From NCBI GenBank assembly GCA_034231615.1, contig CM067307.1:5504647-5568646 (forward strand): DNA of 64,000 nucleotides. The letters run 5' to 3'. Source of the DNA: Meghimatium bilineatum. Taxonomy: Eukaryota > Mollusca > Gastropoda > Stylommatophora > Philomycidae. This document shows, one piece after another, positions 1,393 through 25,900 of this stretch (its first letter is position 1; every line of letters begins with the position of its first letter). The notes below the pieces were generated by a model. That model made no database searches, had not been told where the DNA came from, and worked only from the letters and a program-made list of their open reading frames with translations. The position numbers were made by a program, and so were the translations under genes.

Positions 1393-1851
1393 GCCAAATG
1401 CCAAGAACAATAAGAAAAAGAAGATAAATCTAATAGTGTTTAAAATTATTGTGTCAGGAAGATGCACTTAACCCTTACAGCATAATAGACAACATTATAC
1501 ATTTTTCATACATGCATGAGGGAAGTCGGCAGGTCTTACCAGTGACCTACCACTATGTAACAGTATACTGCTAGCAGAGGATATAACTATATAGTGAGGT
1601 TTTCTTTCCAATGAAAATCCATCGAAAATTTATCTTTACAGTTATAAATGTTTTATGTTGTATGTCCTGTTGTCCATATCTCCTGGATTAAATGTATGTT
1701 TTGTCTCAATGTCCTACTTTCTATTACACAATCCTAACGGGTACTTTACCATATACTGGGCATATGTTCTTTGCATGATGCCATCAAAATATAATATAAA
1801 AGGGAGGCAAAAACTGTTGTGTTCTTCCTTTTTATTGATTACTTCCCTTTG

Positions 1852-1912
<61 letters not shown>
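1852..1912. repeat. (TA)n microsatellite
   Basis: About 30 uninterrupted TA units. Confidence 0.98.
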
Positions 1913-1915
<3 letters not shown>

Positions 1916-3924
1916 GACAGCGGGTATTTATTAGTTAATTTAAATATTAATTTATTTAGGATGGTTGTATGCGTGGGATAGGAGAGTATGTGGGTGGAAA
2001 CTGACTGAGGTTAGGAAGGGGGTCAGTATGTGATAATTTCTTATTGTATGGCGCAGAATGGGTTAACATTTACCTGTAGACTAGATCACCACATTTAACT
2101 CTGCCAGATAGATTTTGAAGTAGTGCCGTACTTTTACAACACTTTCATAAAATCCTTCCTTCAGCATACTAGACTAATGAAATAGCATGTGTCTGTGCAA
2201 ATATCTTTTTATCTGCACAGCATGTCCCTGTGTGGATATATTGTCATCTGGGAGCACTCCTCGATCTGTAAATTCTCGCATAACTCATTTTTATCGGTTA
2301 AAGGCAAGTCAAGTGTAGTTACGGTAGCCATTTTATAACTAGGAATGAACCGACATAGTGATATATATTTTTAATAGTCTCAAACCACTAAAAATTTCTG
2401 ATTGATGCAGATTTCTTAAGCAGTGTGAAATGTAGGTCCGGGATAAGGGAAAGAACCTCTGCATGAATAACAAAGAGATGCAGGGCAGCCAAGTCTGTAG
2501 ATAAAGAACAGCCTTCCCCTTAGCAAATCAGAACATGACTTTTATTACTAGGGATGTAGCCAAAAAGGTCATCACATTTGTCATCAACAAGAGGGAATTA
2601 CACACGAAAACAGATGAATCACCTTTATTCCATTTTTTTTAAAAGGTAAAGCTCCCTCTTTATTGTAATCATAGCCTGTGCTTTTGTCAGAAATGCTATG
2701 TACTACCAAGTGCATATTATGAAGTTGACCAACAACTGCCTGTTTGTACATGTATCAGATTATGAAGAAAAAAATAGGAATAATAGTCAAAATATTCTGT
2801 GTAGGACATACCTATTAGACTATTGCTGAATTGCTAGGCACCAATAATTATCCAATCTCATCATCAGTACAATGTTAGTCACCAATAATTATCCAATCAC
2901 ATCATCGTCAGTACAATGTACACAATCAACTTTCAAACCAGATCAAGCTTGACTGAGCTGTGTTTGTGATGCAGATCTACTAACCTCTCTACCACTGAGC
3001 AGACAAGAAATAGAATGCATAATAATTAAATAAATAAAATTGTATAAAAATAACATTCAATATTTCGTTATCCTGACATTTCACATGCTGATGTACAGTA
3101 CAAATTGCGAATATATTTTATTTTTGGTATACAATAAACATGAATTAATTATTGACAATAAATATATTTGGTTCTGAGATAAAAATATTGTTTTGAGATC
3201 TATCAAAGAATATTTTGAGCATGTTGATAAATTTATATATCCAACATAGATGATACAAAACTGTGACTATCTATCAGTGGTGTGTAGTGGCTTTTTCCAA
3301 TGGGAACTAGTGTTATTTTGATTATAGATTGTAGTGGAAAAAATTAATATTAGTATGTTGTGTTCAGAACCGATCTTCAAACAAACATAGCTGGAGTGAT
3401 CACACTCATGCAGTGATGTCATATTGATATTTCTTTCAACAGAAGCACTATTATTATATTGCATGTTCTTACGTAGAATGTTATTAATTATGTCAAGATC
3501 GCACCAAATATCAACTGCAATGGAAACACACTATGAACCCAGTACTTTCGCTTTGTAAACACACTTTCATCTATTTCAACCATAGTATTTGGTCAACCAA
3601 CAACAATAAGCTGCTGTAATTTATTGTAATTCTTTTTATAAGCAAATAAATTACTTCGACATCACAGTACACGAAACTTGTGAGCCATGATCTGAGATCA
3701 CATATATGATGTATATAATGGCACCACAAGCAGGGAATTTATGGAAACCAAAATGACCATCTATCCACTTTAGAAACGCATAAGTAAAAAAAACACCATA
3801 AAAAGAATATTCAAACTTTTTTGTGTGACTTGAATGGCAACCTCAATTAGTATTTATGATCCTGATATAACCAAAATAGACATAGCTGTTTAAAGAGTGG
3901 TGTCTTACAAAAATAAAAATATTT
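1913..3924. other. Gene-poor 3' flank
   Basis: No exon or element boundary identified, apart from a 56-bp direct duplication at about 2838-2925 (CACCAATAATTATCCAATC) and a dispersed-repeat fragment at 2480-2590. Confidence 0.5.
2480..2590 (+). repeat. Dispersed repeat R3 fragment
   Basis: GTAGATAAAGAACAGCC...CCCCTTAGCAAATCAGAAC matches in order the segment at 34138-34270 and, inverted, 36965-37110 (ACCCGTAGATAAGGGA...CCTTACCAAATCGGAAC). Element class unknown. Confidence 0.5.
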
Positions 3925-4467: not shown

Positions 4468-7400
4468 CTAGAAAAGAAAAGCAAGAATAGGGATATATTT
4501 TACCTTATATTGATACTTTAAGTTTGTAGAATTTAAACCAAATCAATATTGTAAACTTGTGAATTTAAGACAAATGGAATTTTGTAGAATTTAACTCTTT
4601 CCCTATGTATCGTCCTTAATAGATCTTATGATACCATCACATTTTACGGACCATCGATAAAACAACATGGAATTTTCTGTTTTATTCATTTTTGGTATGT
4701 ATATCAACATAAAGATGGTTTGATCAAAAGCGTAATATGTCCACATTACTTCTGACATGATTTTTATGTGTTATTGTATCAATTTTGTAAGGATAAGTTT
4801 TGAACATGTGTGGTATGTGACGCCATTTTCCTTATATTTTCTATATATAGCCTATTTTGAGAGTTCTTATGTTGAATGAAAGTATAACTCTTTTATTTAC
4901 TTTGGTCACATTAATTATTGAAATCCAACCTGGCAATAACTGGAAACATATATGGGAGAGATGGGGGGTATCTCGATGTGTACCACCTCATCGTCCACAA
5001 GCTCATCAGTCCAATCCAGCACTAATGGCTCTCGTCAGTGATGGAATACCATGTGCTCTATCAACTTTGAGGTCAACATCTCACATTTGATCCTAGCCAT
5101 CTTAAAACAATTCTCATCTTTTGATGCTATGGTGAGAATATCCTAATTCTTCTTTAATTACAAGATATATGATCCATCATAGTGGTAGTTCCTTCTGTTG
5201 TATAGGCTACTTCCAAGAGTTCTAGCCCAAGTCCCTTGACTTCGATCCTTCTTCAACAAAAAAAATGTAAGTCCAATTATTCTTAATCAAATCCTGCTAA
5301 TACTATAAGCACACACATTCTAAATAAATCTAGCAACAATTAATTTAAAATACATTAAAATAAATCAGTCTTTAATTAAATTAACATGACATAATTAATG
5401 CAGCTTAATAACTAAATGCTAATTCAATTTAGGCCTGGGCTCTATATCAAAGTCTTCCTCTTTACAGGAACACATAAGGCCAGCACATATGAATCCCATA
5501 ATCAATCTTGAGAGTCTAAATTCTATCAGAATCTACCATCTCACTGTAACAGAATGAGATTAATACATACAATCAATCAATGGATCAATGATTAGCACTA
5601 CGACTTACTATAGATTTAGTTGGATAATTAAATAATTCCATTATTTAATTTACCACATGCTAACCTAATTACCCGCCTACAGACTGACATCAATGGCACA
5701 AGGGGGAGATAACTAAACATAGTATTCAGTCCCTTATCCTCACTGTAATACACATTCACATTGAAAATCTTGAACCAATAATTCTTCTACCAAAGTTATG
5801 AAACTAGCTCCAATTAAGTTATAACTCTGATATAGAAGAGTTCCATCCGTCCCCGCTCTATCTGACTAAAAGAATGTCTGGACTTCATTGTTCCAATCAT
5901 GAGGCATTCCTAGACATATTTTTCAACATGTCAACTTAAAAAATATAACTACAAAATTAGATTCACATCTAGCATATGAAAATTAAACATACTGGCAACA
6001 TTCCTTGATATTATTATACAACTATGACTATACATTTCTAATTGTGACCATCGACTTCTCCTTAAGGGAGAGGACGGACAAAAACACCTACGACTACATT
6101 CTAAAGCTTATCAAGACCACCTTCCTCAGAGCTTCTACTTAACTAAAATAAAATTACAATTCAGTCGCTGACTGAACTTTATTTCGACTTCTCTCTTTCA
6201 AGATCTGGACCCAACTGTCCAGCTCAGTGGCTGTCTTTTGAATGAATATTTTCTTCTTTTCGATTTCACATGAAAACTAATCTATATAGACCCGGTTAAC
6301 ACTTGTTGGAGAAATCCATTCTTCAACAGTGTTGTCCCAAGATTTCTAACAATTTGGACATGGTTGCCATTCCTTCACTCCCCTATTGTGACTAGTTTTC
6401 TCTTCCAGAGTGATATTTCGTGATAGTTATTAATTTTGCCAAGGTTGCCATTTTGGTATACCGAAAAGTCCCAGAATTATCCAACTTTCCTTATTCTTAA
6501 AAAACTTAGCTCTATTATCTATAAATTCTGCTAGTCTATGGAAGGTACATTAACCCTCATCAAAATTGTTACATACATACCTAAGTAGATTTACACAAAT
6601 TTGTAAGACAAATCTGAAAAAAAAATGTGTGCACAATCGAAGATCAACTTTCAAATCTGAGAGAACCAGTGTGATTATTTGGGATAACAAACATAATTGA
6701 AGCACTATGCCTATATACGAGACATTTTTGTGTCCGTAATTGGATTATCTACAAAGTGACACAGTTTGAGTAAATGTTACATTTGGAAGAATGGTAAATT
6801 TCTACGTTTGCTGTACGTGTTGCAGGACTGAATGACAATCGGCTTTCTTCCTATAGCACATTTGCTCGCTTGATATGTAGTAATATAGTGATGTCTCAGA
6901 ATGTTAGTAACTCCTTCCATCCACCTTCATCTTGGTCTTCCTCTGTATGTTACTGTTTTCACATTGTATGCTCTTGCCACTGGCAAATAAGGGTTGATTC
7001 TCATTGTAAGCATATTACGTTACTTGAATCAAAGTACTCACCTGCGGCTCTGTTTGAGTTCATGTATTCCCATTTTCTATGTAGGTCAATGTATAATATA
7101 TCTATATCAGCATTTGTTATTCCTTTTCTGTTCAGATGACATTTCCTGAAGGATGATTCAACAAAAAATAGTAGATGACACTCCCTGAAGGAATATTCAA
7201 CAAAAAATAGTAGATGACACTTCCTGAAGGAATATTCAACAAAAATAGTAGATAACACTTCCTGAAGAATGATTCAACAAAAAATAGTAGATGACACTTC
7301 CTGAAGAATGATTCAACAAAAAATAGTAGATAACACTTCCTGAAGAATGATTCAACAAAAAATAGTAGATAACACTTCCTGAAGAATGATTCAACAAAAA

Positions 7401-10400
7401 ATAGTAGATGACACTTCCTGAAGAATGATTCAAAAAAAATAGTAGATGACACTTCCTGAAGGATGATTCAACAAAAAAATAGTAGATGACACTTCCTGAA
7501 GGATGATTCAATAAAAATAGTAGTAAAACCAGATGTGCTAGTATAGAACATTTGTGTGATTAGCTCTTCTTGACTATTTCAACTGTTATAAAAATACATC
7601 TTAAAGGCAAATATGAAAATAGTTATGAAATTTGATTGATAATTGTGTCCGAAGTGTTCTGATATTAAATTTATAATATCTAAAGTTATATTCAAAATCT
7701 CTTCAGAAGTGTTATGAAATCATTTGATTTATGAATTTGTGAAAAATGTTAAATTATATATTTATTCTCAATAAATGTGTTCTTAATTTAGATTTAGACA
7801 ATAGGGAGAACATTATCGAAAGAGAAGAAAACAAATAAAGAGGTTCTAAAAACACTTAATATGAAGAAAGAATTACTAAAAGAAATAAAGATCAGACAAA
7901 TAAAATATTTTGGACACATTCAAAGACATGACACCTTGTTGAAAACCTTACTTGAGGGTAAAGTCAAAGGGAAGCGAGCAAGAGGTATACAGAGATACAA
8001 GTGGGAGAGTAACATCACAAGATGGACAGGTTACAGTCTAGCAGAGTGCACCACCAAAACAAGAGACAGAGGATGTTGGAGATCTGTTGCAGCCAACTTT
8101 CGTTGCGGAGACGGCACTTGATGATAAATTTAGATTTAAATAGAGATTTATAACTTGGAAATTATATTTATAATCTCTATAGAAACTTTATTTTATTTTA
8201 ATATACATTACTTTGCTTGTTTTATTTTATTTTAATGTACATTACTTTGCTTGTTTTATTTACTACCAGCTCTAAAAAATAGTTCATGTACAGAAAAATA
8301 GGGCACATGTAGGCAGAGAAACAAACATAGTTGGATACATAAGAAATTAAATGATATATATTTCATACTTTAAACAAAAGAAGTAGATTATCAGATATTT
8401 TGGACACAGAAAAGAAAGAAGACGTTGATGGAAACTGTTGAGAAAAACAAAGTTGAGTGCTGACTATACAGTATAGATCTAAGTAAAAAAAAGATTATAG
8501 GCTAAGTAAAAATACATGTTGTTCGTCCATCACATGATGATGATGACCATATGCTACACCATGTTTGAAATTCAGTTAGAATTATGCTCTTGATTAAAAA
8601 TACATATACTTTGGGCGGACAACATTAAGAGGCTTAAAACATATAGATGATGAAATAATCCCTGTAACTGTAAGAAGATAACTTTTAACAGCCTTTCTGA
8701 CAACAGCACAGGTTATTCTAAGTTGCGCAACTGAGGTGTCATCCAAACATACATAAGGGTTGTTGTCCCCAAGGTATGGTTGTTATAGGGAGCGTTATGG
8801 ATGCATTTTTAGTCTCTGTGGTGAGGCATTCTAGTGCAGCAGTATTCCAGGATTATCATGTCCTGCCGGAAGTGCAGTATATACATCTGGGTCAACTAGT
8901 TCATCATTCTTCTGTCAGATCTGTTCACCCATCTGTAGTGATAATACTAACATTCCCCACCATGCAGGAGTCTGCCAAAAAAAGAACAAATGTGCAATAT
9001 TCACAGGCTTGTATCTCTTTGTCATCCATTGCAACCATTTGACAGAAGACAAAAGTACAAGAAATCAAGTAAGATATTCATTGACAATGATGATTTTTTT
9101 CAGTTGAAAGGTTGTCAGCATACCCCCCAAGTTTTCTTAGTTGCCTCCTATGACATGTCAGTAAAGTAGACAGTAACTCCTTGCACCCTGAATTAGAAGT
9201 CCAGACACATGTTGCAACACGGGCATAAAAGGTGTACAGCTAAACAACCTACAATGACCTAAAACAAATCGCCTAATACATCAATATCAGACTGGATGTA
9301 TAATATTTGATCATAATAAACAGAACAAGGTGTAGAGAATTGACTTAATTATTTTTGAATTTCCGCATATTTACTTCATGTCTCTGAAAAAAAAAAAGAA
9401 CATTGCTTGCTGAGAAAAGCACTACCTGCTAAGAGAAGCACTGCCTGCTGAGAGAAGCATTACCTGCTAAGAGAACCATTCATAGTACATAACTCTATAG
9501 TGTTAAAAGATAATCACTTCACTAGGAATCTCTTTAAAAGATAATCACTTCACTAGAAATATCTTTTTTAAAAAGGCTATCGGATAAAATATATTTATTG
9601 TGATTTTATAATGACCTTGAATCCATAAGAAAACAGAGTCTTTTCTGTGGTTGTTTAATTTCTAATTATTCTGAGCACCTCATGAGACTGGAAGCAACCA
9701 GCAATAGCTGACTTTGTGCAAACTTTGTGCTTTGTAACTTTGTGCAAACTTTGTGCTTTGTAACTTTGTGCAAACTTTGTGCTTTGTAACTTTGTGCAAA
9801 GAATAGCTGAAGATCAGATTACAAGGCATGAGGAAGATCAAGAATTAGATAGGTGGAAAGAATCAAAGAATCCTTAAAGACACCAGCTGATCATTGCCAA
9901 TGCAACCTAAAGACAGACAACTTCAACTCTCCCGCATGACGCACAAATTGTGAATTGTGAAGTTACAATAGATAAATAAATCAGTTTAATTGAGATGTCA
10001 TGTGACGTATTCCTTCCAGAACGTTGTCTTCCCAATGAACTCTCTGAACCTCTCTCTGTCTTGGGCGATGTGGCTTGCATTTTCTAGCGATGTATTCATG
10101 TAATCTTTAATGTCGTCAGTCCATCGTCTTCTTGGTCTGCCTCTTCTTCTCTTCCCAGGTACTCTTCCCTCCATTATTTGTCTTTCTAAACAGTTATGTC
10201 TCTTTATATGACCAAACAGGCGTAGTTTTCTTTTTGTTATTGTGTTTAGTAACCAACACTCTGAAATATTCAGTGTTTATAATATCTGAGTTTCTGATTT
10301 TATCCTTCCTTGATATTCTAAGTATCTTCATGTAGCATTTCAGCTCGAAGGCGTTGATCCTCTTTGCCGCTGTTTTACTTAGATTCCATGTTTCACAGCT

Positions 10401-13400
10401 GTATGTTGCAACCGGAAAAATAAAAGTTCGTAACATTAGCACTTACGTTTCTATTTTGTTGTTTTTCCATATGTTTTTCAAGAGGACTATGTGCTAGAAA
10501 TATGAAGCATTGTCATTACTGATAGTTTTAAGACACTTAGATCTAGGCCATTTATCTTTATATCTTCTTCTTCTTCAGCGTTCATTCTCAAACTCCTACT
10601 GCATTTCCCTTGTAGCAGGACCATTGTCCTGCTAGATTTCCAGCAGGATGTAGTCCATAGAATGGAAATGCGCTGTGTTGCCGTTTTATTCGCGCCAATG
10701 GCCCAACACATCTGTCTTCGGTGGAGTCTTTATATTATTTACTCAATGTGTAACACAAATTCATTATTCACATTCACCACAATAATCAATTACAGTGGAA
10801 TCCTGTTGTAACAACTTAGTCCGGACCAACAAAATATGTATGTAATAACAGAAATTCACAATATACAGTACAAACAATATAGAATAAATATAATTAGAGA
10901 TTTCAAGAATTGTTGTTATATAGGGAAATTTGTTATAAAAGAATGCACTATAGAGGGAATCCACTGTACTATTTCAGCTTGTACTACGTTTGAGTTGTTA
11001 TTCTAAATAAAAATAAATGAATAGACTTACCGTGCAAAAAGTCGAAACATTGATGGACTAAGATAAAGACTTCCCTTGATACCAAGAAATATTGTAAACA
11101 AGTCAGCCAGTTTCTCAAAAATTCGTTCACTTCTGAAACTCTCGCTGTATAAAGCCGGGAAAATTTCCTTCAGACATGACTCTTCCTCTTCTTCATCCGT
11201 TGCGTCTTCATTAACGTCATCGGACGAGTCAGCTTCATTACTTTCGCTAGACAAAGATTGTGTATTTTGTCTATCTCCATCTTTCTCTACAATGTCAATG
11301 TCCTCAGATTTATCAGTGTCGTCAGATTTATCAATGTCCTCAGATTTATCAATGTCCTCAGATTGATCAGTGTCGTCAGATTTATCTATATCCTCAGATT
11401 TATCAATGTCCTCAGATTTTTCCTCACGTTTGGCTGACGCAGCAAAAAGATGATTATTCGCTTCTATTATAACTGCTGATTTTTTATGTCTACCAATCTT
11501 ACTGGCAATCCAGTTCTTCAAGCTGCTGATTGTACCAACATGTGGATGGGAAGATTCATCTAAATATAGTGAATTTGATGTCCCCTCTTCAGAAATAGCA
11601 TCTCCTTCCCCTTCAGACAACATATGACTTGATTCTCTTCGTATAACTCTTTTTCCAATATAATCATCCGATTGATAAAACATGGATTTCTCTGTGTTTC
11701 CTGTTTCATCGTCAATGTGTAGTATAGAAATTCCATTCTCTTTTGGAGAATTACTTTTGTAGTTTTTGTTACTGTTGCCTTTGTCCAACTCCACGTCTGC
11801 TTCTGCTTTGTTATTGTTGTTATTGTTATTAATACTTCTATTTTGATGTCTGCACCTGGTGAAATATTAAAATAATTATTGAGTTTGTTATTTAAAGATA
11901 TATTATTAAATAAAAACTTACAGCATATACCAGTAGTTTAATGCATTATAGTATCATTATCAATTTAATTCCAGCCAATAGCCATATCTCCTCTGATCCC
12001 TTTTTTTTTGCGCATAAAGATATCAGAAGCAGTGCACAAGCTTTGTAGCAAAGTTCCCATGTAATTTTATGTGTATTTTATATATTAGTATCTATTTTGT
12101 TAAGAAAGCAATGGCAACCTACTGAATGTAATCAATTATCAGGGAATCAATCAATAAATCAAGTGCCATTTAGTGTAGGCAATCATGCTTCTCCACAATT
12201 TACTGTCTCTTGTGTTGTTAATAAGTTCAGTTGGTGACTTCTTATTGTGCCACAGTGGGAATCCATCCAGAAATTTCTCTTGTTGTCTTCCTCTGTCTCT
12301 TCTCCCTTTGATCTTTCCGGTGGTTACTAAATGTTCAAGTTTTACTTTCCTCATCACATGCCCTAACAATCTTGAGTGTCTGCTTCAAATTTTTGTTATA
12401 ATTTGTCGTTTTACTTCAGTATCTCTGAGGACTTCTACATTAGTTTTCTTGGCTGTCCACGGAATTGTTATCATTCTTCTTAAAAACCACATCCCAGTTG
12501 TCTCCAGCTTATCTTGGGTGCTTTTTTTAACTGTCCATGCTTTGCTTCCATAAAGAAGGATTGGCTGAATATAACATCCTAGCACTGAAACTTGCGTATG
12601 TATTGATATTCATTGCATAGAATATTTATTTTTCAAAATGTTTATTTCTATCCTGTTCTTGATCTCATTGGAACACTGCCAATTTGATGTTAAAATGGTC
12701 CCAAGATACTTGACTTTATCCATTTAATTTAATTTTGCATCATTGATAGTAAAACTTCATTTTGGTGGTGTGTAGGCCTATTTCTTTGAAAATACCATTA
12801 CTTCTGTTTTCTTTTTGTTTAGACTGAGGCGTTTGTTTTCACTTTTTTGTACTACTATCTCTAGCAGGGCTTGAAGTTCTTGTTCGATCCCTGCAATTAG
12901 AATTGTATTGTCAGCATATCTTAGAGATCAAGGGAATCAATAATTAAAAAATGTTGAGTTGATCAATAATATGTACTCACTGCAACAAAATTGAAATCCA
13001 ACAACTGAAACTTGGAACAAATTAATGAAGCTTTGATAATCACTGGAAACTCACATAATAACGCACAAAAATAGATGTTTTGACCAAAAAACCTTGAGTT
13101 TATTTTTATATTCTAAATAGGATATGTTACCAACATTTTCTATCTATTATCTGTCCCCATTATGTGTTCAATGTTTCACATTTTCTGAGTAGCTGGAGTT
13201 TCAAATTACAATTCAAAGCAAGATGTTATTTTTGTTGCACTGTATACATATTTGTTCATTATATCATTGATGTTGTCTGCGTAACATTTTCTTGGTTTTT
13301 CTCTCTATCTGTATTCAAAACTTAAGGAACTCATATAACTTAGAAACATGCCCAGAATAAAGAATTAATTCCAACCTAGATGGTATAAAAATACAGTAGA

Positions 13401-16400
13401 CTTAAAAATACTTCCAGGCAATTATGGTGGCAACTGAAAAACTGTTGAAATCCAACCCTGGCCCACATCCTGTCGTATTCCTGACAGATGCAAGGTCACT
13501 GCTTCGACAGTGAGTTTTATTCAGGAGACAGAATCACAGATATAGACATGTTTCAAGTGAACGAAAGAAGAAGCTAACACACAGATAATTCATTCCTGAA
13601 CATCTTCAAATATGGAATATTTTGGGGGTCCATGGCAGTAAAAACTATTTAAAGGGGGTCCATGACAACAGAAAATTTAAGAACCACTGGCTTAGCTCAT
13701 ATTATTGCATCTACCTTTACACTGAGCAAACAGCTCACTTTACACTGAGGAAACAGCTCACATCACACTGAGCAAACAGCTCATTTTACACTGAGCACAC
13801 AGCTCACTTCATGCTGAGCAAACAATGAAACTTGAAAGAACAATATTGAAAACTAACCATCAGAATGATTAGTCAAGAAAAATATATACAGAGAGTCTCA
13901 AGCGCAAACCCCAAATACCAGACACAAAGTAAATAATATTACAGTGGAATCCCTGTATAGCTTACTCTTTTATAACATACTTCCCTATTTAACAACAATT
14001 TTCAATAAAAATCCCAGTTATATTTATTCTATATTGTTTGTACTGTATATAGCAAATTTCTGTTATTACCGTTAAATTCCGAATATAAACCCATCCTATT
14101 GTAGGACGACAACCTAATTAACCCTTCCCAAAAGTGGAGAAAATGGAAGGTCCGACTATAGACCGACATCCCCAATGCCAGCAATAATGAACTTCATCAT
14201 CATAAGAAAGAACCGACATGCTAAATGGAAATTAACACAAACTTTTGCAACTCTCAGAAAATGGCATTCCTTTCATTTGCTTCACTCACGTAACTTGAAT
14301 GAATCAAGGAATGAAACCCCGGTGGCTACTGTATTCTGGAACAATATATCCGAAAATAATGAATACCCCGTAGGCTGACTTCCCTATCCATGACTATAGA
14401 CGGTTTATGAGGTGGCGAGACTTTGGGGAACAAAGTTTTTCCTGAATGAATTGTCTGTGTTGGATGTCTGGGCCTTATGACGCGGAACAGCGCTAGTGAA
14501 TAGTAATTACTATGTAACTATTATGTCACCGGCTTCTGACAGTGACGTTTAAGTGGGAAACGATGAAAGGCAAGACAGCGAGATCACGTTTGTTTTTATA
14601 AGATACAGAAGAGTTTGAACTTTGTTACTGGTTATGTTTACCATGTGGGGAGAATACGGTAATAAAATAAACATAACAGAGGATTGTGAAATTGATCTCA
14701 TCTTCCACTAAATGTACAGTGGTTGGGGGAGGGAATCAATTACGGCGCAATTTTACTACAAAATGCCTAAGATGTGTTGTGATTTGGAACCTCGTTTCAA
14801 ATCTTCTATAAAGAAAGATTGCATTTAGTCACTTATCTGAATGGCATCACATAATGTGAGGGAAACTTGGATTGGTTGAGCCGATTGAAATGGGTAGGGT
14901 CAGTAGTCCATCTGCGGCCTCAGTGGGCTGGACTAATTAACAGAATATAAGGCTGACTTAGCTAGCCAAGAATACTGCACAAGTAGTTTAGCTTCCAGTT
15001 CATACATTTTTATTGTCATTGTGATTTTATTCCTGTAAGTGTAAGCGGGGAAACAGGAAAGATGAATGGCCAGACAAAAACATGCCAGATCACGTTTGTT
15101 TTTAAAAGATACAGAAGAGTTTGAACTTTGTCTGACCTGTATGTTTACCGTAGTATGTAGAGTAAGACCTCTGTACAGAATTAATTAGGACTTCATTCTA
15201 TGTTTCTGATTATTGTCTTGGTCAATATTTATATACTTGGAGTCCCATGTTAAAAATTGGCAAGACCGACCAGCAACATTCACGGAAATACTCAAAATCT
15301 GCCTTTGAGGTGTTGTTTTAAATTTTCTGTACACAGGTATTATAGCCTAGTAGACGGTCAGTAACTGTTGTAACATTTGCTTTACCGCAACAAGAAAGTG
15401 TGTGACAGTGTTTAGATTACTGGTAGTTAGTGTTTCCCTACACAAACAAGACTAGGCCTAAGCTACCAATCAGCTTAGGCTATGGTATTTCATTTGTTTT
15501 TTCCACAGACCATTACCGTATTTTGGTCAATAAATAACATCAGATACTGGTATACTTTTCTGACCAATTTCGATGATCAATTGAAACCTTTATGATAGAA
15601 ATATATGTACTATAAACGGTAAAGAAAAACCGGCAATACCCATTGCTAAAAATAGCGTTTCCGGGAAATTATTCTAAAAAAATGGCGGGCGTGTCTGAAA
15701 TAACGATATAGACCTAGTAAGTGAGTTTTTATCAAGAAATATCGGAGATTTTGAAGGAAATATTATAGGATATATATAAATTAATGTAATTAGAGGCTTA
15801 GCATTATGGTAAGTACGCTCTAGATTGCTGGTGAGCCCTAGTCATTTTATCCTGGCTTAATATATTGGGACATGTGACTGTATTTTTTTTAAAGTGTTTT
15901 TCTCCTTTTTTACTGTGATTTGGACGTAATTTTTTTAAAAATTTGATCTTACTCTCGAAAATAAGCAGAGGAGTATGAAGTCATCTCTGTTTTTTGTCCA
16001 AAAATTCTCGTGTTATACACGGAATTTAACGGTACATGTATATTTTGTCTGTTCATACCAAGTTGTTATAATGGAATTCCACTGTACAAAAATCATGCTC
16101 TTTCAGAGATGAAAATATAAAACAAATAACATCATACGTAAAGACTATCACCTTCTACGTGTGTACTTATGTTTAGGAGCTACAAGCATTAGAGTGTCAC
16201 GTATTAATGTTCTCTTCACTTCTTCATCCTTTGTTGAAATGGTATATTCTACACAACCTTCCGGTGTTTCATGTTCTTCTGTGATGCTAAGACTTGGGTT
16301 TGCATTGACTTCTAGAAGCATTGGTTGAAGGTCTTTCATGAGAATGATATCAAATCCAAGAACCTGTAAGAAATATTACATTATTGGAAGTTAAAATAAA

Positions 16401-19400
16401 GATATAAGGCAATAACTACAGAAAAAAACTAATTACACCGGTGAAGAGAAATTCAGCTGACGGGATGTGAACCAGTACCACTCGGCACCCACTCATCTTC
16501 CAACTTGAGTACTCATGTCACTTCTGAAGCAACCTTGTTTATTTATGTTTGTGTGTTATTTATGTTTTCAAGTAGACCTAATTTGGTCATTGTAGTATTG
16601 ACGCCTTCTGGCACTTAATAATGTTAAATATTTGTGTTTCTCGGGGGAGTTTTCATATCTTTGCAGTGTGTGTGTGTTGTTATTATCTATGTGTCAACCA
16701 ACTGGTCCATTTTTTAGGGATGTGGTCTGACAGAAGACTGACAACTAAAGTTGAGAGGTGAGTGGGTGCCATCAAAATGGACCTGGTTCAAATCCTGTTT
16801 GCTGCATGATTTTTATTTATTAATAAATTCTCAATGTTACTATGTTGTATTAAACTGATGAAGCTTGAAACATGATAAAGTTATGCTAATCACTGGTAAC
16901 ATTTACAAATCAAAGTTTTGTCCAAAAGGCCTTCATCATGAACACATTCACACCATAAATATAATGAGTAGGAACTGCCCATGTTCACATAACCATATTT
17001 AGAAAAGGAGCTAATTAAATATTCATAAGGTGTACCGATTGCTAATTTAAAAGAAAAATTAGTGACTATGGTGTCACCCCATGGGACAGTGAAGAAAAGT
17101 CACTGCACAATAGTGATAGTTCTACCTGAAAACATGTAGGTCCTGGTTTCCCAGCTGGGATTGCTGCCTGGTATTCCACTTTCAGCTCACCAGCGACTGC
17201 AATCAGGGTTTTCGTGACCAGTTGCTCAATCTGTGTCCAGACTTTTTTTACATCATGACCTAGTTTATTCATCTTCTTGAAAACTGCAGACATTTTTCTT
17301 TTGCTGCCTTCATCATCCTACAATTGAACAATTTTGATAATGTACAGCAACATATATAATCATAATAATGTTGGAAGAATGGACAGACAGCTTGAGACAA
17401 GAATTCAAAAAGCCAACTAAGTAAATTTGAACTTACAACAATTTTTAAACACACATGTATATCTATGAAAACCAAAAGGCAAATCATAAATTCAATATTC
17501 ATCTCAACATTGTGTTATCAATGTCAGACATGGACACTAACTAAAGAACAAGAGAGAAAGCTTACTACATGTGACATGAGATGTCTAAGAAAAGCAAGAA
17601 ACATAACAAGAAAAGATCATGTGAGAAATGAAGAGATTACAAGAACTGTTGGAACAACATCTGTGGTCAAATATATTGAAAAACAGAGACTGAATTCCAA
17701 CGGCCACCTAATGAAAATGAACCCTTATGGGCCAGTGTCACGAGCATACAACATTAATGGAAACGGCAAGATTCAGAGAAAGACCAAGAAGAAGGTGGAT
17801 TGAAAGAGTTACCAACATTCTGACATAACACAGTATTACTGCATATCAAACAACCAAACATGCCATAGCCTTAAAAACTTATCGTAATTCAATCCTGCTA
17901 GGCCTCACAGAGAAAACAGAGAAAAGACAACAGATAACAACATTCTGAAAGAATGTTGAAGATCTCTGTAAAACTTCTTTAAGCCGACTTTATCTGGCAT
18001 GTAGATCCTACATATAGGCTTATATTTCTGCAGAAGACAGATGTTTCTTGATTAGAAACTAGCATCACAGCATGTGGCACACTCCCATAAGTGCTCCGCC
18101 CTCCATTCCAGCAGCCATCCCAGTGTATGAAGACTCAGTGTTCCAGTCAGGTGTTGATTGTGTGATCTTCTGAACTTTCCCAAAAAATACTTTTCCTCCC
18201 CTCCCCTCTAGACACATCCATTTCTGACATTCTCTGTATGTCTACATTTTCAGCCTCATTGACATCATCTTCACCTTGAAATGAATTTATTACTGCATAG
18301 AACGGATGAGTTGGACTATTAGCGCAAATAAAATGACAACACAACACATTTTCCATTCTCTGGACTACATCCAGCTGGAAGTCGAGTAGAAACATTGTCC
18401 TGCTACAAGCGATAACCAGCAGCAGTTTGAGAATGAATGCTGAAGAAGAAGGCCTATACTTAATTTACTTTAATCAATGGTGCATTAAACCATCTTTATC
18501 ATCTCCTGTAGTTCTGCTTGATTCAAAGCATATAAGCATTGCCTTTCTGGTGGAGCTAGTAAATACAGCTGAGATAGGGAAGTGGTTTAATGACAATGGG
18601 CAAGGAAACTTCTCTCGTTAAAACCTGACCGGCAATCATGTCTGAAACATAGTTTTTATGAGTCTTGGCCCTGGCCATGCAAGCAATCACATAGCTGTCA
18701 ACATATTTTTTTTATAAATTCATATTTGTTTACAATTGATAAGCGTATTTTTTTTTTTTAAATGTACGTATTTAGTACTAAAAGTCCTATTTCTTGCCTT
18801 TTTTTGGGGTCAATTTTTGTGTGTGTGGCCCATCAATACGTTCACTACGTGTGTAATATAAGAAAAACATCTGCATTAGTAATAATTACTGAAATTTAAC
18901 AAGAAATTACCTTTTTTTATAGTAAATAAATTTTGGGGTCAGAAATCCGTACTAATAAAGAAAATCTATAATCATTTGATGGACTTCTAGTTTATTTGAA
19001 ATTTAACACTGGCGTCTTTCTCCTTCTAGTTTATTTGAAATTTAACACTGGCGTCTTTCTCCTTCTAGTTTATTTGAAATTTAACACTGGCGTCTTTCTC
19101 CTTCTAGTTTATTTGAAATTTAACACTGGTGTCTTTCTCCTTCTAGTTTATTTGAAATTTAACACTGGCGTCTTTCTCCTTCTAGTTTATTTGAAATTTA
19201 ACACTGGCGTCTTTCTCCTTCTAGTTTATTTGAAATTTAACACTGGCGTCTTTCTCCTTCTAGTTTATTTGAAATTTAACACTGGTGTCTTTCTCCTTCT
19301 AGTTTATTTGAAATTTAACACTGGTGTCTTTCTCCTTCTAATGCTGGTCCTCCTTCTTCTTCTTGTTTGCAGTTTAACATGTCTACACAGTTTTTCTTAC

Positions 19401-19886
19401 TCTGAATACAAAACCAGGTTTTCTTGATAGATGTTGCTGTATATGAAAGCTCCTCAAGGCTCCAATACAACTTTCTGTGGATGTCTGTTTCTGTGGGCCA
19501 GTGCTCCTACCTTAACTAGTTTAGTGTAATGCAGTCTTGCAGGATATGTTCCACAGTCTGTGCTGTCCATCCACATGGACAGAGAGGTGATGGAACCAGT
19601 CTTAGTCTATTTAAGTGGCTGTTTAGTCTGTTTTGTTCTGTCCTGATGCGGAAGATGCTAACCTGCTCAACTCAGTCGAGACAGTGATAGTTATCTTTAT
19701 TTTGGTAGAATTTCTTAATATATTTAATGAGGGTCTCCTTTTTTTTTGGTAGGTGATTTGTTAGTCTTTTTTGTTCCTGTGTTGTTCCATTGTTTGATAT
19801 CATATCTGCCTCTTCATTTCCTGGGATTCCACAGTAGGATGGTAAACACTGGATTGTTTTCTGACCATCTGCAAAGACGCAACATG

Positions 19887-19925
<39 letters not shown>

Positions 19926-22900
19926 CCACCATTATCATCAAAATCATTATCTCACCATCATCATTTACCCATCACGTTAGTTGCACTGTACACATACATT
20001 TATGTTAATGACTCCACTCGTATATGAACCTATACTATTTCATTTACGTACACTTAGGCCTGCATATGATTTTAAAGATTATGTTCACATAACTGTTCCG
20101 TACTTTTGTAGTGATAATCCTTCTAAATTGATGCATGTGCCTTTTCCCATGATTTTCACTGGTCATTTTGTGTCTACAGCCAATGAAAATCACTAGAAAA
20201 GTTGAATGCATCACTTTAGAAAGATGATTCCCAGATGAATCAGCAGGTCTTATAAGTGTCAATGGTCACTGAGTAACTCCTAAAAGTCAAATATCTGTAA
20301 CAAAACAGTCCTAATGTTCCTAAAATAAACCAACATGTCAATACCTCCCTCTCTCATCATTAAAAGTAACCCAAAACACAGGTCAGAGAACAAAACAATA
20401 CATACCTCTCCCTTCCCATCACTAAGGTTGAAAAGGTGTAGACGATTTCACTAAAAACTTCAATGATGGTCAAATATGTCTAAACAATACCTTCCCATAC
20501 CCACAGAAAACTACTACACCATTTTCTGGTTCATGAAATAATCACACAATGATTACTTCATGTGAAACATTGTATAAGGGACATAACAATAATAATTGCA
20601 AGGGACATAATATTAATAATTGCAAGGGACATAACTTACAGTAATAATTGCAAGGGACATAACTTACAGTAATAATTGCCCATTATTGTATATAACGAAA
20701 CTCAATTATTATATACATATCCTGTCATTACTGACCAATTCATTATAATGGAACTCCACTGTAACAATGCATTCAGAACAAGGCAAGCTGCAGAGAAGTT
20801 GCCAGATCAGTAGAGTTGTGTTCTATCTGTCCACTTATCAGTGCACCAACTTAGACCAGCTGCCAACCAAGGTTAAGGTACTGGTCTGCCCTGCGACCAT
20901 TTAGTTTTAGATAGCATTTCATCCTAGGACAAGGCCTTTATCCTCCTACATCTGCTCCTCTGACAAAAGCTGTTAGCACAATCATGTGGTTCACCAGGAT
21001 AGGTAATTACCGCCCGACTTATAGCATTCACAGAAACAGTTTGCAGGTCACAATCTACAGTCATATCTAAAAAAAAACCTGACTTTAGACATATCCTGGT
21101 TTATAACTAATATATCCCCTACCGGGGCCAACTCCCTGAAGTGGAGATGGACTTAGTCTAGCCAACAGAGGCTGGTAACTAAGATTGGTATCTTAGGCTG
21201 CAATCCCTTATATCGAGCTGGACCACAGTACTGCCCAAGCAATTCAGGTGCTGAAATTGGAGATTCCAGGCAGAGAGGCACACCAGCAACCATGGTATCA
21301 TGCAATGCAATCCACCTATTATGCTGTGAACAAGAAGAAGAACTAATATATTTAAACATTTTAAAGCAGAATTGCCTTGACCTAGTGTAAATACAAACAG
21401 CTGACATCAATATTTACAAACAGCTGACATCAATATTTACAAAAAGCTGACATCACTATTTACAAACAGCTGACATCAATATTTACAAACAGCTGACATC
21501 AATATTTACAAACAGCATACCTTCTCTGAAATCTTGAAATCGTTACTTTTCTTATTAAGTGAGTAGTTGGTTAAATGCATGAATGTCTCATGCATGTTTT
21601 TATTATTTGGTTGTTCGTATGGGATGGTGGAAAAACGAGCTAGACCTTCTTTGCATATATAGATCTCCAGTGGGTCTATAGACTTGACTACAACATATAT
21701 TCTAAGATCAAACTTGTATCTGCAAAGAAAAGAGATTAGTGTTGTTATTGTGGTTTACCAATAAATTGAAAATATTTGGATCATCTTGCATGAAGGGGAA
21801 AGATAAAGAATAATATAAAGACAAGAGGAGAAAGTGATAGCAGTTAGTTCAAGTGTTGCACATCTACGAAGATGAATAACAGCACACGATGGAACAAGTG
21901 GACCTGTGATTCCTTGTGGATTGGATTCGTCTTGTGGGCCACATCTATCATCGCCATGGATCATAGATTATATTTCTAATAGCACAATGATAATACTATT
22001 GTCTGGAAAGGTCCCTACTGTTTATATAGGCCTAGATCTATACATAATTTAAACAAGACTTATATAGGGTAGGTGGGGACAAAGATCCACACTTTTTACA
22101 TTTGAGTGTATTCTGACACATTTCTAGACTTAACTACAGGACAACAAACTGTCATCAGTGTATAGTTTATTTATTCATCTTACATTAGTTAGGGTATTGA
22201 AAAAATATGTTTTACATGTAGACAATACAATGAGAGTTTATGAATTTATGTAAATGCAGATCTTTGCCCCATTTTATGACGCAAAGATCCACAGACAAAA
22301 AGGTGATATAAATCATTATAAAATTGAGGGAAATCGTCACCGCAACAGGTCCAGCAAACCAGAAGTGTGTAAATGTGTGCTCAGAATAGACATGTAGCCT
22401 ATAATTTAATAAACTTTAATCTGAAGAAAAAATCAACAACGTTAGCACAAAAATAGTTAGTAAATTCCATTTTAAAGCTAATTATGTTTTTGTAAGATCA
22501 TTATAACCAAATATAGTATGTATATGATGCTCTCCTAGCTATGGATCGGCATCAGCAACTTCATCATGACATCAACATTTTCTTCAAACTGTTTGAATGC
22601 AGACCTTTCCTTCAATAGCGTGCAGATCTTTACCTAAAATCATTGTTATAAGCCATCACAAATTCTGATGTAAAAATAAAATAGCCTCACAAGATAACGA
22701 GCTTAAGAACTTAACAACACTACATATATTTCAGTTTAAACTATTGTTTAAAATCACGATATTAACATAACAGCAGGCAGAGTGTGAGTAGTTGAACAAA
22801 AAATAGAACAAACACAGTGAAAAATATTTTTCCTCATTGTTGAAAATTGACTCTTCCTTGACCTATCAAACTTCATTCTGTCAAAGACTGGAATGTTGGC

Positions 22901-25900
22901 ATCTGAAGTAGTCATGTGTGGTTTCTGAAAAATCCGTTGAATAGAAATAAACCTCCTCAGGATCTTTGCCCCTCGCTGATCTTTGCCCCCACATACCCTA
23001 CCCCTAGACCTATAGGCCTACATAATTGCAATAAGACTTACTATTTATATGGCTCAGAAACATTGGGCATAAAAATATAAAGAAAAACTTCCAGTGTTCA
23101 ATAACAGAATAGGGCCTACTAATTAAAATATTGGTTATTCTATAGGATGAACATTCAAATATATGGGGAATTAGAGACAACAAAGAAATTCATGACTTGT
23201 ATGTTATTTGTCTATCACATGATGATGATGACGATTTGTTACATTCACTGTATGAATAAAATTCAGTTAGAAGTATGACCCTGTCTATGAGTTTGTAGGT
23301 GGATGATAAGCTGTATCGTGGCTCCAAAGATCTTTGAATAGTTTGGAATGATCACTTTTGATGGTGTTTGATCTGCTATTAACCTTCTAGCTAGTCTCCA
23401 CTGCTGAGCTGCTACATTCATCCTTTTTTCACATATTGTTGTGTATTTTTTCAATTGCAGAACACCACGTAGCGTGTTTCGTGCAGCAACTTTCCAAGGG
23501 TCATGGTTTATATCAAAGTTTCCATTGATATCTTTTCTGAGTCCTTGTAATGCTTCTTTTGTCCACCCAGAGATCACATGCCCTTGATTCTCTTGATTAT
23601 TGATTAGGCTGGCCTCATGGCATGTGGGACATTCCCATAAGTGCTCCGCCCTTTGTTCCAGCAGCCATTCGACTCAATGTTATTTCGAGTCTAATGTTGC
23701 AGAAATAGACGTCAACATCAGGGCACAACTCTGGCCCTTGCGACAGGTTTCTTTGTTGTTCGGCCCACCCACGCCGTGCCCGTAACTAGTTCAAGCACAA
23801 CGTCGGCCTGTCGGAACAACATGGTAACTGTTATCGAAGGTTACGACTATGGAATTGTATAGATGACGTGCCATGAAGCTTCTATAAGAAGATAACCTCA
23901 ATATAACGGCATGTCATCTACTAAAGTTTTCTGTTGCATGGTTGGTTTGTCTAGTGAGCCATTGGTGAGACCCACAGACGCAACCACATGCCCTTCTTCA
24001 TCTCACCATAGAGGAGTACTCCAGTAAGCCTATTTGTGGTAGATGGTGACATATACATACTACATGAACTATCCATTGTCTTTCTATCTGCATCAGAACA
24101 GCCAATGCTAGAGATACAAGCTCTTTCAAAGGACAGTGCTGTCATCATCACTTTGTAGTGTATTCATATCAGCCATAATTTACTTATCGCTAGCTCCATC
24201 TTTTCACATCTCTGTGCTATTCATTATAGCATTTCCCACAATACATCAAATCTTACATTGCCTCTGATGCCCGCATGACCTGGACAGCATATCCATGTGA
24301 CACTTTGCCTTTAGGATATAGTGCTTCTATTTTCTAAGTAGTGTAAATTCATTTGCATTAAAAGGAAATTCAATTCATTGTACTAAACTGTCCCCATATG
24401 TGCTATGACAAACTCAGTAGTAACACTTCTCACAGAGAGTAACAAACAAGAGAGAGAGACCATGCAACTGTGTAGATCAATGCAATGTTACACAGAAGAG
24501 ACCATGTAACTATAGATCAATGTTGCAAACACACAAAAAAAAGCACAACACTAACTTATCAATCAGAAAAACATTGCTGAGGTATTCTTGCACAACATGA
24601 CTTCTGTTGTTGTAGTTGCTGTAACTAAGGGGATCCTCTAGCAAGTAGATCCCCTGACCCTGGGATCCTTCGCTAGGTTTCACTATGTACATTGGTTTTC
24701 TTGTGGACTTCTTTGCACTGGCTGATCTGACCTGAAACAGGATATGGTGTGTGGGTTTCAATGTCTTAGTGCTTGATATTTTCTGATTAGTGTTTGATGA
24801 TATTTTCTTTTTAGTGTTTGATGATATTTTCTGTTTGGTGTTTGATGATATTTTCTGTTTAGTGTTTGATGATATTTGCTGTTTAGTGTGTGATGAAATT
24901 TGCTGTTTAGTGTTTGATGATATTTGCTGTTTAATCTTTGATGATATTTAATAAATTTATTGTTTTGTGTTTAATATTTACTGATTAGTTTCTCAGTATG
25001 ATCATAGATCATGGATGGCAGAGGCTGAAGACACACTGCGAATAGTATGTGAATTGGAAGAAATAGGAAAGGGCAGTGAATGGGTGGAGGTAGACACTGA
25101 GAAGAAATCACTGACTAAAGTAATAATACAACTAGATAAAGCGTATCGAAAATGGACGGCAGTCAGGGCTCAGGATACAGTACAAGAACTCGCCCAACTA
25201 CACTCGAAACCACAAGACATAATTATATACACAGATGGATCTGTTAGCAGAAACACAAATAAAAGCGGTTGGGGTTTTGTTGCCTACAGAAATGGCGTGA
25301 AGTTGGTTGAGAAATCTTACAGCATATTCTACTGTCACATCGAGCATGAGGATGGAGATAGAGGGAGTTACAGCAGCTCTTAATTGGTTGATAACTGATA
25401 CATCAACACACGCTGTAATACTCATAGACTCTCAAAGCATGTTGCGCAAGATAGAAAAGTTCATGCTAAGAAAAGAATGGTGGGACTTATTGAACAACTC
25501 AGTTGTCCAATGCATTACATGGATATTCTGCCCTGGTCATGCTGGGGTCAGAGGAAACGAGAGAGCCGACTTACTGGCAGGCAATGCGGCGATAGACGGC
25601 ACATTGCTGAGAAGAGATAAAGCAGATTTAATAAAGGCAGTAATAAATTCATTTCGAGATGCAGATAATGTCAATGAGGTTGAGAAAGTACACATACAGA
25701 GAATGTTAGAAATGGGAGTATTCAGAGGTGAGGGGAGGAAAAGTAAATTTTTTGGAAAGTCCAGAAGATCACACAATTAACACCTGACCGGAACTATGAG
25801 TCTACATACACTGGGATGGCTGCTGGAGTGGAGGGCTGAGCACTTATGGGAATGTCCCGTGTGCTGTGAAGCCAGTTTCTAATCAAGAATCAAGTCTCAG

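Follow-up and report, generated by a model that had tools for sequence, protein, structure and literature searches.

A minisatellite across the intron 8/exon 9 junction of a TTLL11-like gene

The window analysed here, meaning the whole stretch of 64,000 nucleotides from contig CM067307.1 of the Meghimatium bilineatum assembly GCA_034231615.1 (GC content 36%), carries a TTLL11-like gene on its minus strand, and a minisatellite lies across the junction between intron 8 and exon 9 of this gene. Six modelled exons (A to F, with E and F corresponding to exons 8 and 9; Table 1) join as a single open frame of 569 amino acids, which bears out the exon 8 phase (CG|, the bar marking the splice junction) given in an earlier note on this DNA. 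Of six exon pieces scanned, three matched the Pfam TTL domain (PF03133), and among PDB chains the catalytic exons were closest to TTLL11 (9hq4_E, 280 bits), followed by TTLL6 (174) and TTLL7 (166). For the end of exon 8, TTLL11 was the sole PDB chain matched at E values up to 1, and the 34-residue peptide of exon 9 matched a single place in the 1.61-Gb assembly (32 contigs). Judged by its TTL domain, its best solved relative and the helix-bundle contacts described below, the gene is a TTLL11 orthologue, and polyglutamylase activity is predicted for its product.

Tandem Repeats Finder (TRF) scored the array at 655, with 94% matches between copies of the 39-bp unit. In each unit a pyrimidine-rich tract is followed by a CAG|G acceptor and by 12 nt that repeat the beginning of exon 9. 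Ten such acceptors are present, their first exon bases running from 7495 inwards to 7145 at distances of 40, 38, 39, 39, 39, 39, 38, 39 and 39 nt. The earlier note had described tandem acceptor-like sites upstream of the exon; the array is real and holds ten CAG|G sites, but it spans the junction instead of merely preceding it, as the last partial copy overlaps nucleotides 1-12 of exon 9 (7145-7134). Similarly, the pyrimidine-rich wording TTCTTCAG|G, said to occur in every unit, was found at five of the ten acceptors, while the other five read CCTTCAG|G. A search of the genome returned a full-length match to the array at its own place only (100%), together with six partial matches at 66-73% identity. 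An origin from a dispersed repeat was accordingly rejected, and the array is locus-specific within the limits of this search.

Position of the exon 9 acceptor

When the joined exon 8/9 peptide was aligned to human TTLL11 (9hq4), a start at 7145 gave a gap-free junction, 66.0 bits and an E value of 2.5e-17, whereas a start at 7127, the position chosen in the earlier note, gave 50.2 bits (E 2.5e-12) and a gap of six residues. The site previously regarded as the nearest decoy is therefore the conserved acceptor, and it follows that the array unit copies the intron 8/exon 9 junction itself, including 12 nt of coding sequence. Acceptors were also scored with a Shapiro-Senapathy-type matrix. Scores were 3.95 for position 7127, 6.02-6.71 for the ten array copies (6.71 for 7145, and 6.48 for 7184 and 7223) and 5.08-13.01 for the remaining five acceptors of the model. 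The suspicion that 7127 is a weak acceptor was thus correct, and scoring all CAG sites, a check proposed at the time, placed none of the array copies below it. That 7127 could nevertheless be the true acceptor, with a purely intronic array, is very improbable: such a start preserves the reading frame, but at a cost of 15.8 bits it loses six residues present in human TTLL11, and its score is lower than that of every array copy and every other modelled acceptor. For annotation this is a reason for caution, since the exon start picked by eye falls within the exon and the conserved start within the repeat.

Of the ten acceptors, only the three innermost (7145, 7184 and 7223) keep the reading frame open through exon 9, in agreement with the earlier observation that the frame stays open over the nearest three units. 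The seven outer acceptors are frame-shifted and run into stops, so the set of in-frame inserts is not open-ended. The distances of +18 and +57 nt from 7127 to 7145 and 7184 had been calculated correctly, but the inserts of 6+13n residues predicted from them reduce to 13 or 26 residues once they are counted from 7145.

Consequences for the protein

The paper describing 9hq4 names R574 and R578 in helix alpha10 and A590, I594, I597 and R601 in helix alpha11 as prominent microtubule contacts, and describes weaker binding and activity for the TTLL11 variants I594W and R601E (PMC12366701). Under a chain offset of 280, at which each named residue carries the expected letter, all six contacts were found to be identical in the window protein. 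The C-terminal helix bundle runs on beyond exon 9 and was compared as far as exon 9. The codon of R578 is split by the intron, and an insert of 13 or 26 residues would consequently come to lie between R578 and A590; with 7127 as acceptor, the same interval would lose six residues. If made, the longer forms would probably separate alpha10 from alpha11 within the microtubule-binding bundle and weaken the enzyme.

Within exon 8, the acidic stretch between the catalytic domain and the helix bundle contains 18-bp coding repeats (KSEDID-like, 11295-11419).

Arrays at other splice junctions

Minisatellites are frequent in this genome. The window holds 41 merged arrays with a period of at least 10 (typed by hand from TRF output), which cover 11.1% of it. 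The splice sites of the TTLL11-like gene showed no enrichment for such arrays: one of its 12 sites lay inside an array (1.32 expected), two lay within 10 bp (1.48 expected) and three within 50 bp (2.04 expected, P 0.34).

I then made a small survey of 70 loci round conserved exons, taken from the best-scoring matches of three families, judging hits by eye. The TTL family gave 33 matches, of which 30 provided loci (including exons A and B of the present gene), the myosin head gave at least 67 matches (30 loci) and dynein AAA_6 gave 122 (10 loci); kinesin gave 123 matches, and no kinesin loci were taken into the survey. Arrays of period 10 or more covered 9.9% of the TTL loci, 8.4% of the myosin loci and 13.3% of the dynein loci, with margins round the match that differed between the TTL and the myosin and dynein loci. 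In five of the 70 loci the repeat unit spans a splice junction (95% interval 2.4-15.9%), at two acceptors (L039 and L072) and three donors (L036, L062 and L074; Table 1). Given 140 junctions and 9.7% coverage, 13.6 hits were expected, a rough figure for which both ends of every match were counted as junctions, so that arrays at junctions were rarer than chance predicts (P of five or fewer, 0.005). Having fewer hits than expected indicates that junctions are not targets of the arrays, which are rather the residue of a minisatellite-dense genome, presumably after selection.

The five arrays differ in what has become of the copied splice sites, which were kept in three and absent in two. A frameshift arises with the first extra copy in the three that kept them, namely L039 (35 bp), L062 (35/43) and L074 (73). 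In L036 and L072 the 51-bp units are divisible by three, and their extra copies are without GT or AG; the CTG copies of L072 look as if spare acceptors had been silenced or had never been active. The donor of L036 was placed by reference to general TTL-family sequence. Three GTAAGT donors were counted in L074, and a fourth copy reads GTATGT.

Some further features were seen at these and neighbouring loci. In L062 the next exon (SRVVYQ) is visible downstream and the copies are separated by 16- or 24-nt stretches of the form GT...CAG, while the units of L074 resemble mini-exons between ATCAG and GTAAGT. In L040 and L019, the latter being exon B of the window, an array starts within or just after the donor and contains no exon sequence; the 23-bp array of the window at 21392-21516 starts at base 5 of the intron after exon B, and its units include GTAAAT and CAG. 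A 24-bp array (24774-24949) stops 42 nt short of the first base of exon A. In L038, which has an exon similar to that of L039, the nearest upstream array ends 58 nt before the exon.

Table 1. Features of the TTLL11-like gene and of the surveyed junction arrays. Positions refer to the window or, for loci with an L number, to the locus cut for the survey.
Feature	Position	Strand	Basis or remark
Mirage-type minisatellite across the junction, 10.1 copies of 39 bp	7134..7523	-	TRF, unit listings
Innermost conserved acceptor TTTGTTGAATCATCCTTCAG|G	7146..7165	-	PDB alignment, frame check, splice score
Second acceptor copy, open frame, +39 nt (+13 residues)	7184	-	Frame check
Third acceptor copy, open frame, +78 nt (+26 residues)	7223	-	Frame check
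Acceptor copies 4-10 (7261, 7300, 7339, 7378, 7417, 7455, 7495), frame shifted, stop	7261..7495	-	Frame check
Acceptor of the earlier note, CATCTGAACAG|A, within the conserved exon; its use would cost 6 residues	7127	-	Alignment, splice score
Exon 9 (F), conserved start 7145, donor CAG|GTGAGT	7042..7145	-	Gap-free alignment to 9hq4_E
Exon 8 (E), end FRLFAR with split codon CG|	11031..11855	-	Exon model
Exon D (TTL domain)	16152..16363	-	PF03133, exon model
Exon C	17126..17317	-	Exon model, aligned to 9hq4_E
Exon B	21521..21719	-	PF03133, exon model
Exon A	24556..24731	-	PF03133, exon model
L036, TTL-family donor	1575-1674	minus-strand reading	Two 51-bp copies; second has AT where first has GT
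L039, TTL-family exon SEYHIFVDEFRKCPG, start SEYHIF	1394-1523		Acceptor and first 17 nt, four 35-bp copies; outermost AAG, others CAG
L062, myosin head exon NYLLEK|GTAATC	1647-1852		Donor and exon tail in five copies; spacing 35, 35, 43, 43
L072, dynein acceptor CVVFNCSDG	1259-1527	minus-strand reading	About five 51-bp copies; four upstream CTG, real CAG
L074, dynein donor DALLFQ|GTAAGT	1711-2002		73-bp units, about 60 nt of exon tail

Interpretation and alternatives

Taken together, I favour the reading, at a probability of roughly 0.85, that the TTLL11 array is a mostly passive minisatellite of the kind called 'mirage' in amphioxus, in which the innermost acceptor makes the protein and the outer copies are at most minor or prone to nonsense-mediated decay. 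The array would have been born when the junction of intron 8 and exon 9 in the TTLL11 orthologue was tandemly duplicated, and would have grown from the junction outwards, a direction suggested by the homology of the first exon 9 codons (R-S-C-K-L in human, R-K-C-H-L here). The spliceosome would mostly use the innermost copy, as has been suggested for amphioxus, and the outer copies may be used at a low level, with out-of-frame products presumably being removed by nonsense-mediated decay. Since arrays occupy about a tenth of the sampled exon neighbourhoods and also lie across other junctions, the TTLL11 array is better seen as a tolerated by-product than as an adaptation. The precedent of acceptor-side mirages in amphioxus raised the standing of this passive reading and lowered that of the readings in which the array generates isoforms, sets dosage or tunes splicing by its length.

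Several observations weigh against the passive reading. The acceptor score discriminates little: among 1069 AGs in 7600-24700, 3.7% score as high as 7145 or higher, and 10.8% do so relative to 7127. The ten array acceptors are nearly equal (6.02-6.71), and a branch-point-like nTnAy stands at -29 to -32 of each and singles out none, so the sequence does not tell why the innermost copy would win. Scanning, or the earlier transcription of the outer copies, could even favour the outermost acceptor. The 3' end of the gene model is provisional, as the probe used did not find the exon or exons following exon 9 in 40 kb downstream.

Substantial use of 7184 and 7223 would yield TTLL11 with 13 or 26 additional residues between alpha10 and alpha11, varying with the composition of the array, which is the isoform generator that the earlier note had in mind. 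Both sites preserve an open reading frame and score similarly to 7145 (6.48 against 6.71). Against this, seven of the nine extra acceptors disrupt the frame, chance alone would make the unit length a multiple of three in one third of cases, and three of the five other junction arrays have a first extra copy that causes a frameshift. The insert would also adjoin microtubule-contact residues, and regular splicing is reported to proceed undisturbed by the mirages of amphioxus (PMC3087553). The idea is thus weakened to the point of being quite unlikely, although its two extra in-frame acceptors stand. An effect on dosage, whereby the outer acceptors divert transcripts into frame-shifted products that are degraded and the length of the array tunes the level of TTLL11, also appears unlikely. 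Seven acceptors do lead to stops, and the length of a variable number tandem repeat (VNTR) in human ABCA7 is inversely related to expression, with retention of a unit adding a premature stop; yet retention of a single unit there is independent of VNTR length, which acts on exon 19 skipping instead (PMC5954066). The undisturbed splicing reported for mirages (PMC3087553) and the absence of extra splice sites from two of the five other junction arrays (L036 and L072) likewise speak against it. A broader proposition, that mirages are general in this minisatellite-dense genome, placing spare and in many cases intact acceptors or donors at several percent of conserved exons, and that copy number tunes the splicing of many genes, with TTLL11 exon 9 as an extreme case whose nearest extra acceptors would in addition extend the microtubule-binding bundle in 13-residue steps, is doubtful as well.

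Irrespective of which reading holds, such arrays serve as natural experiments in splice-site choice, the competing sites being nearly identical and differing mainly in their distance to the exon body. If the outer copies are used, repeat length would tune the form or dose of a protein in a heritable way, and if they are unused, position alone can silence sites that look good. The six cases in this genome (five from the 70 loci, and TTLL11) make the question approachable with a single long-read RNA data set.

Comparison with known systems

Amphioxus genomes measure about 0.5 Gb, compared to 1.61 Gb here. The amphioxus Adh3 and globin genes carry 'mirage' minisatellites across exon-intron boundaries, with AG or GT signals in many but not all units, and copy number that varies between haplotypes is characteristic of the class; the Adh3 data and the authors' RT-PCR (reverse transcription polymerase chain reaction) suggest that regular splicing is undisturbed (PMC3087553). 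Somatic variation has also been reported for amphioxus Adh3. Amphioxus and the present genome have in common that several genes are affected, at 3' and 5' boundaries, by units containing both exon and intron. The unit lengths are 39 bp here, 10-72 bp in amphioxus Adh3 and 150-160 bp in the globins. The likeness was established by anatomy in the genome sequence of one assembly, while the amphioxus case includes RT-PCR. Given the difference in genome size, mirages are likely not confined to cephalochordates.

On the donor side, a minisatellite supplying repeated splice sites was reportedly described in 1995 for IFI6 (6-16/G1P3). The VNTR in intron 18 of human ABCA7 has a 25-bp unit that begins with a splice donor, and retention of a single unit, found in 2 +/- 1% of transcripts, causes a frameshift and a premature stop; VNTR length correlates inversely with expression and affects exon 19 skipping but not single-unit retention (PMC5954066). 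It resembles the TTLL11 array in being a minisatellite with repeated splice sites and differs from it in that it acts on the donor side, with a unit that, as described, apparently contains no exon sequence, and in that use of its sites was shown by cDNA.

Two further systems concern new introns. Boundary minisatellites with units of about 30 bp alter splicing in human paralogues within segmental duplications, where they form novel introns, whereas the TTLL11 array multiplies an old junction (PMC2812944). Tandem duplication of sequence with splice motifs has given rise to novel introns in Drosophila, which means a new intron position, as opposed to the multiplied acceptor of a standing intron (PMC2891723). 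The DDX3Y minisatellite MSY2 was considered as a parallel and rejected, as it is a promoter repeat, not a splice-site array (PMC3039753). Compared to the amphioxus mirages, which provide the closest likeness, the TTLL11 array lies in a different gene and has two in-frame extra acceptors. The mirage kind is thus already known, and what is new here is the gene, the ten intact CAGs, the two in-frame extra copies and a rough frequency of such arrays.

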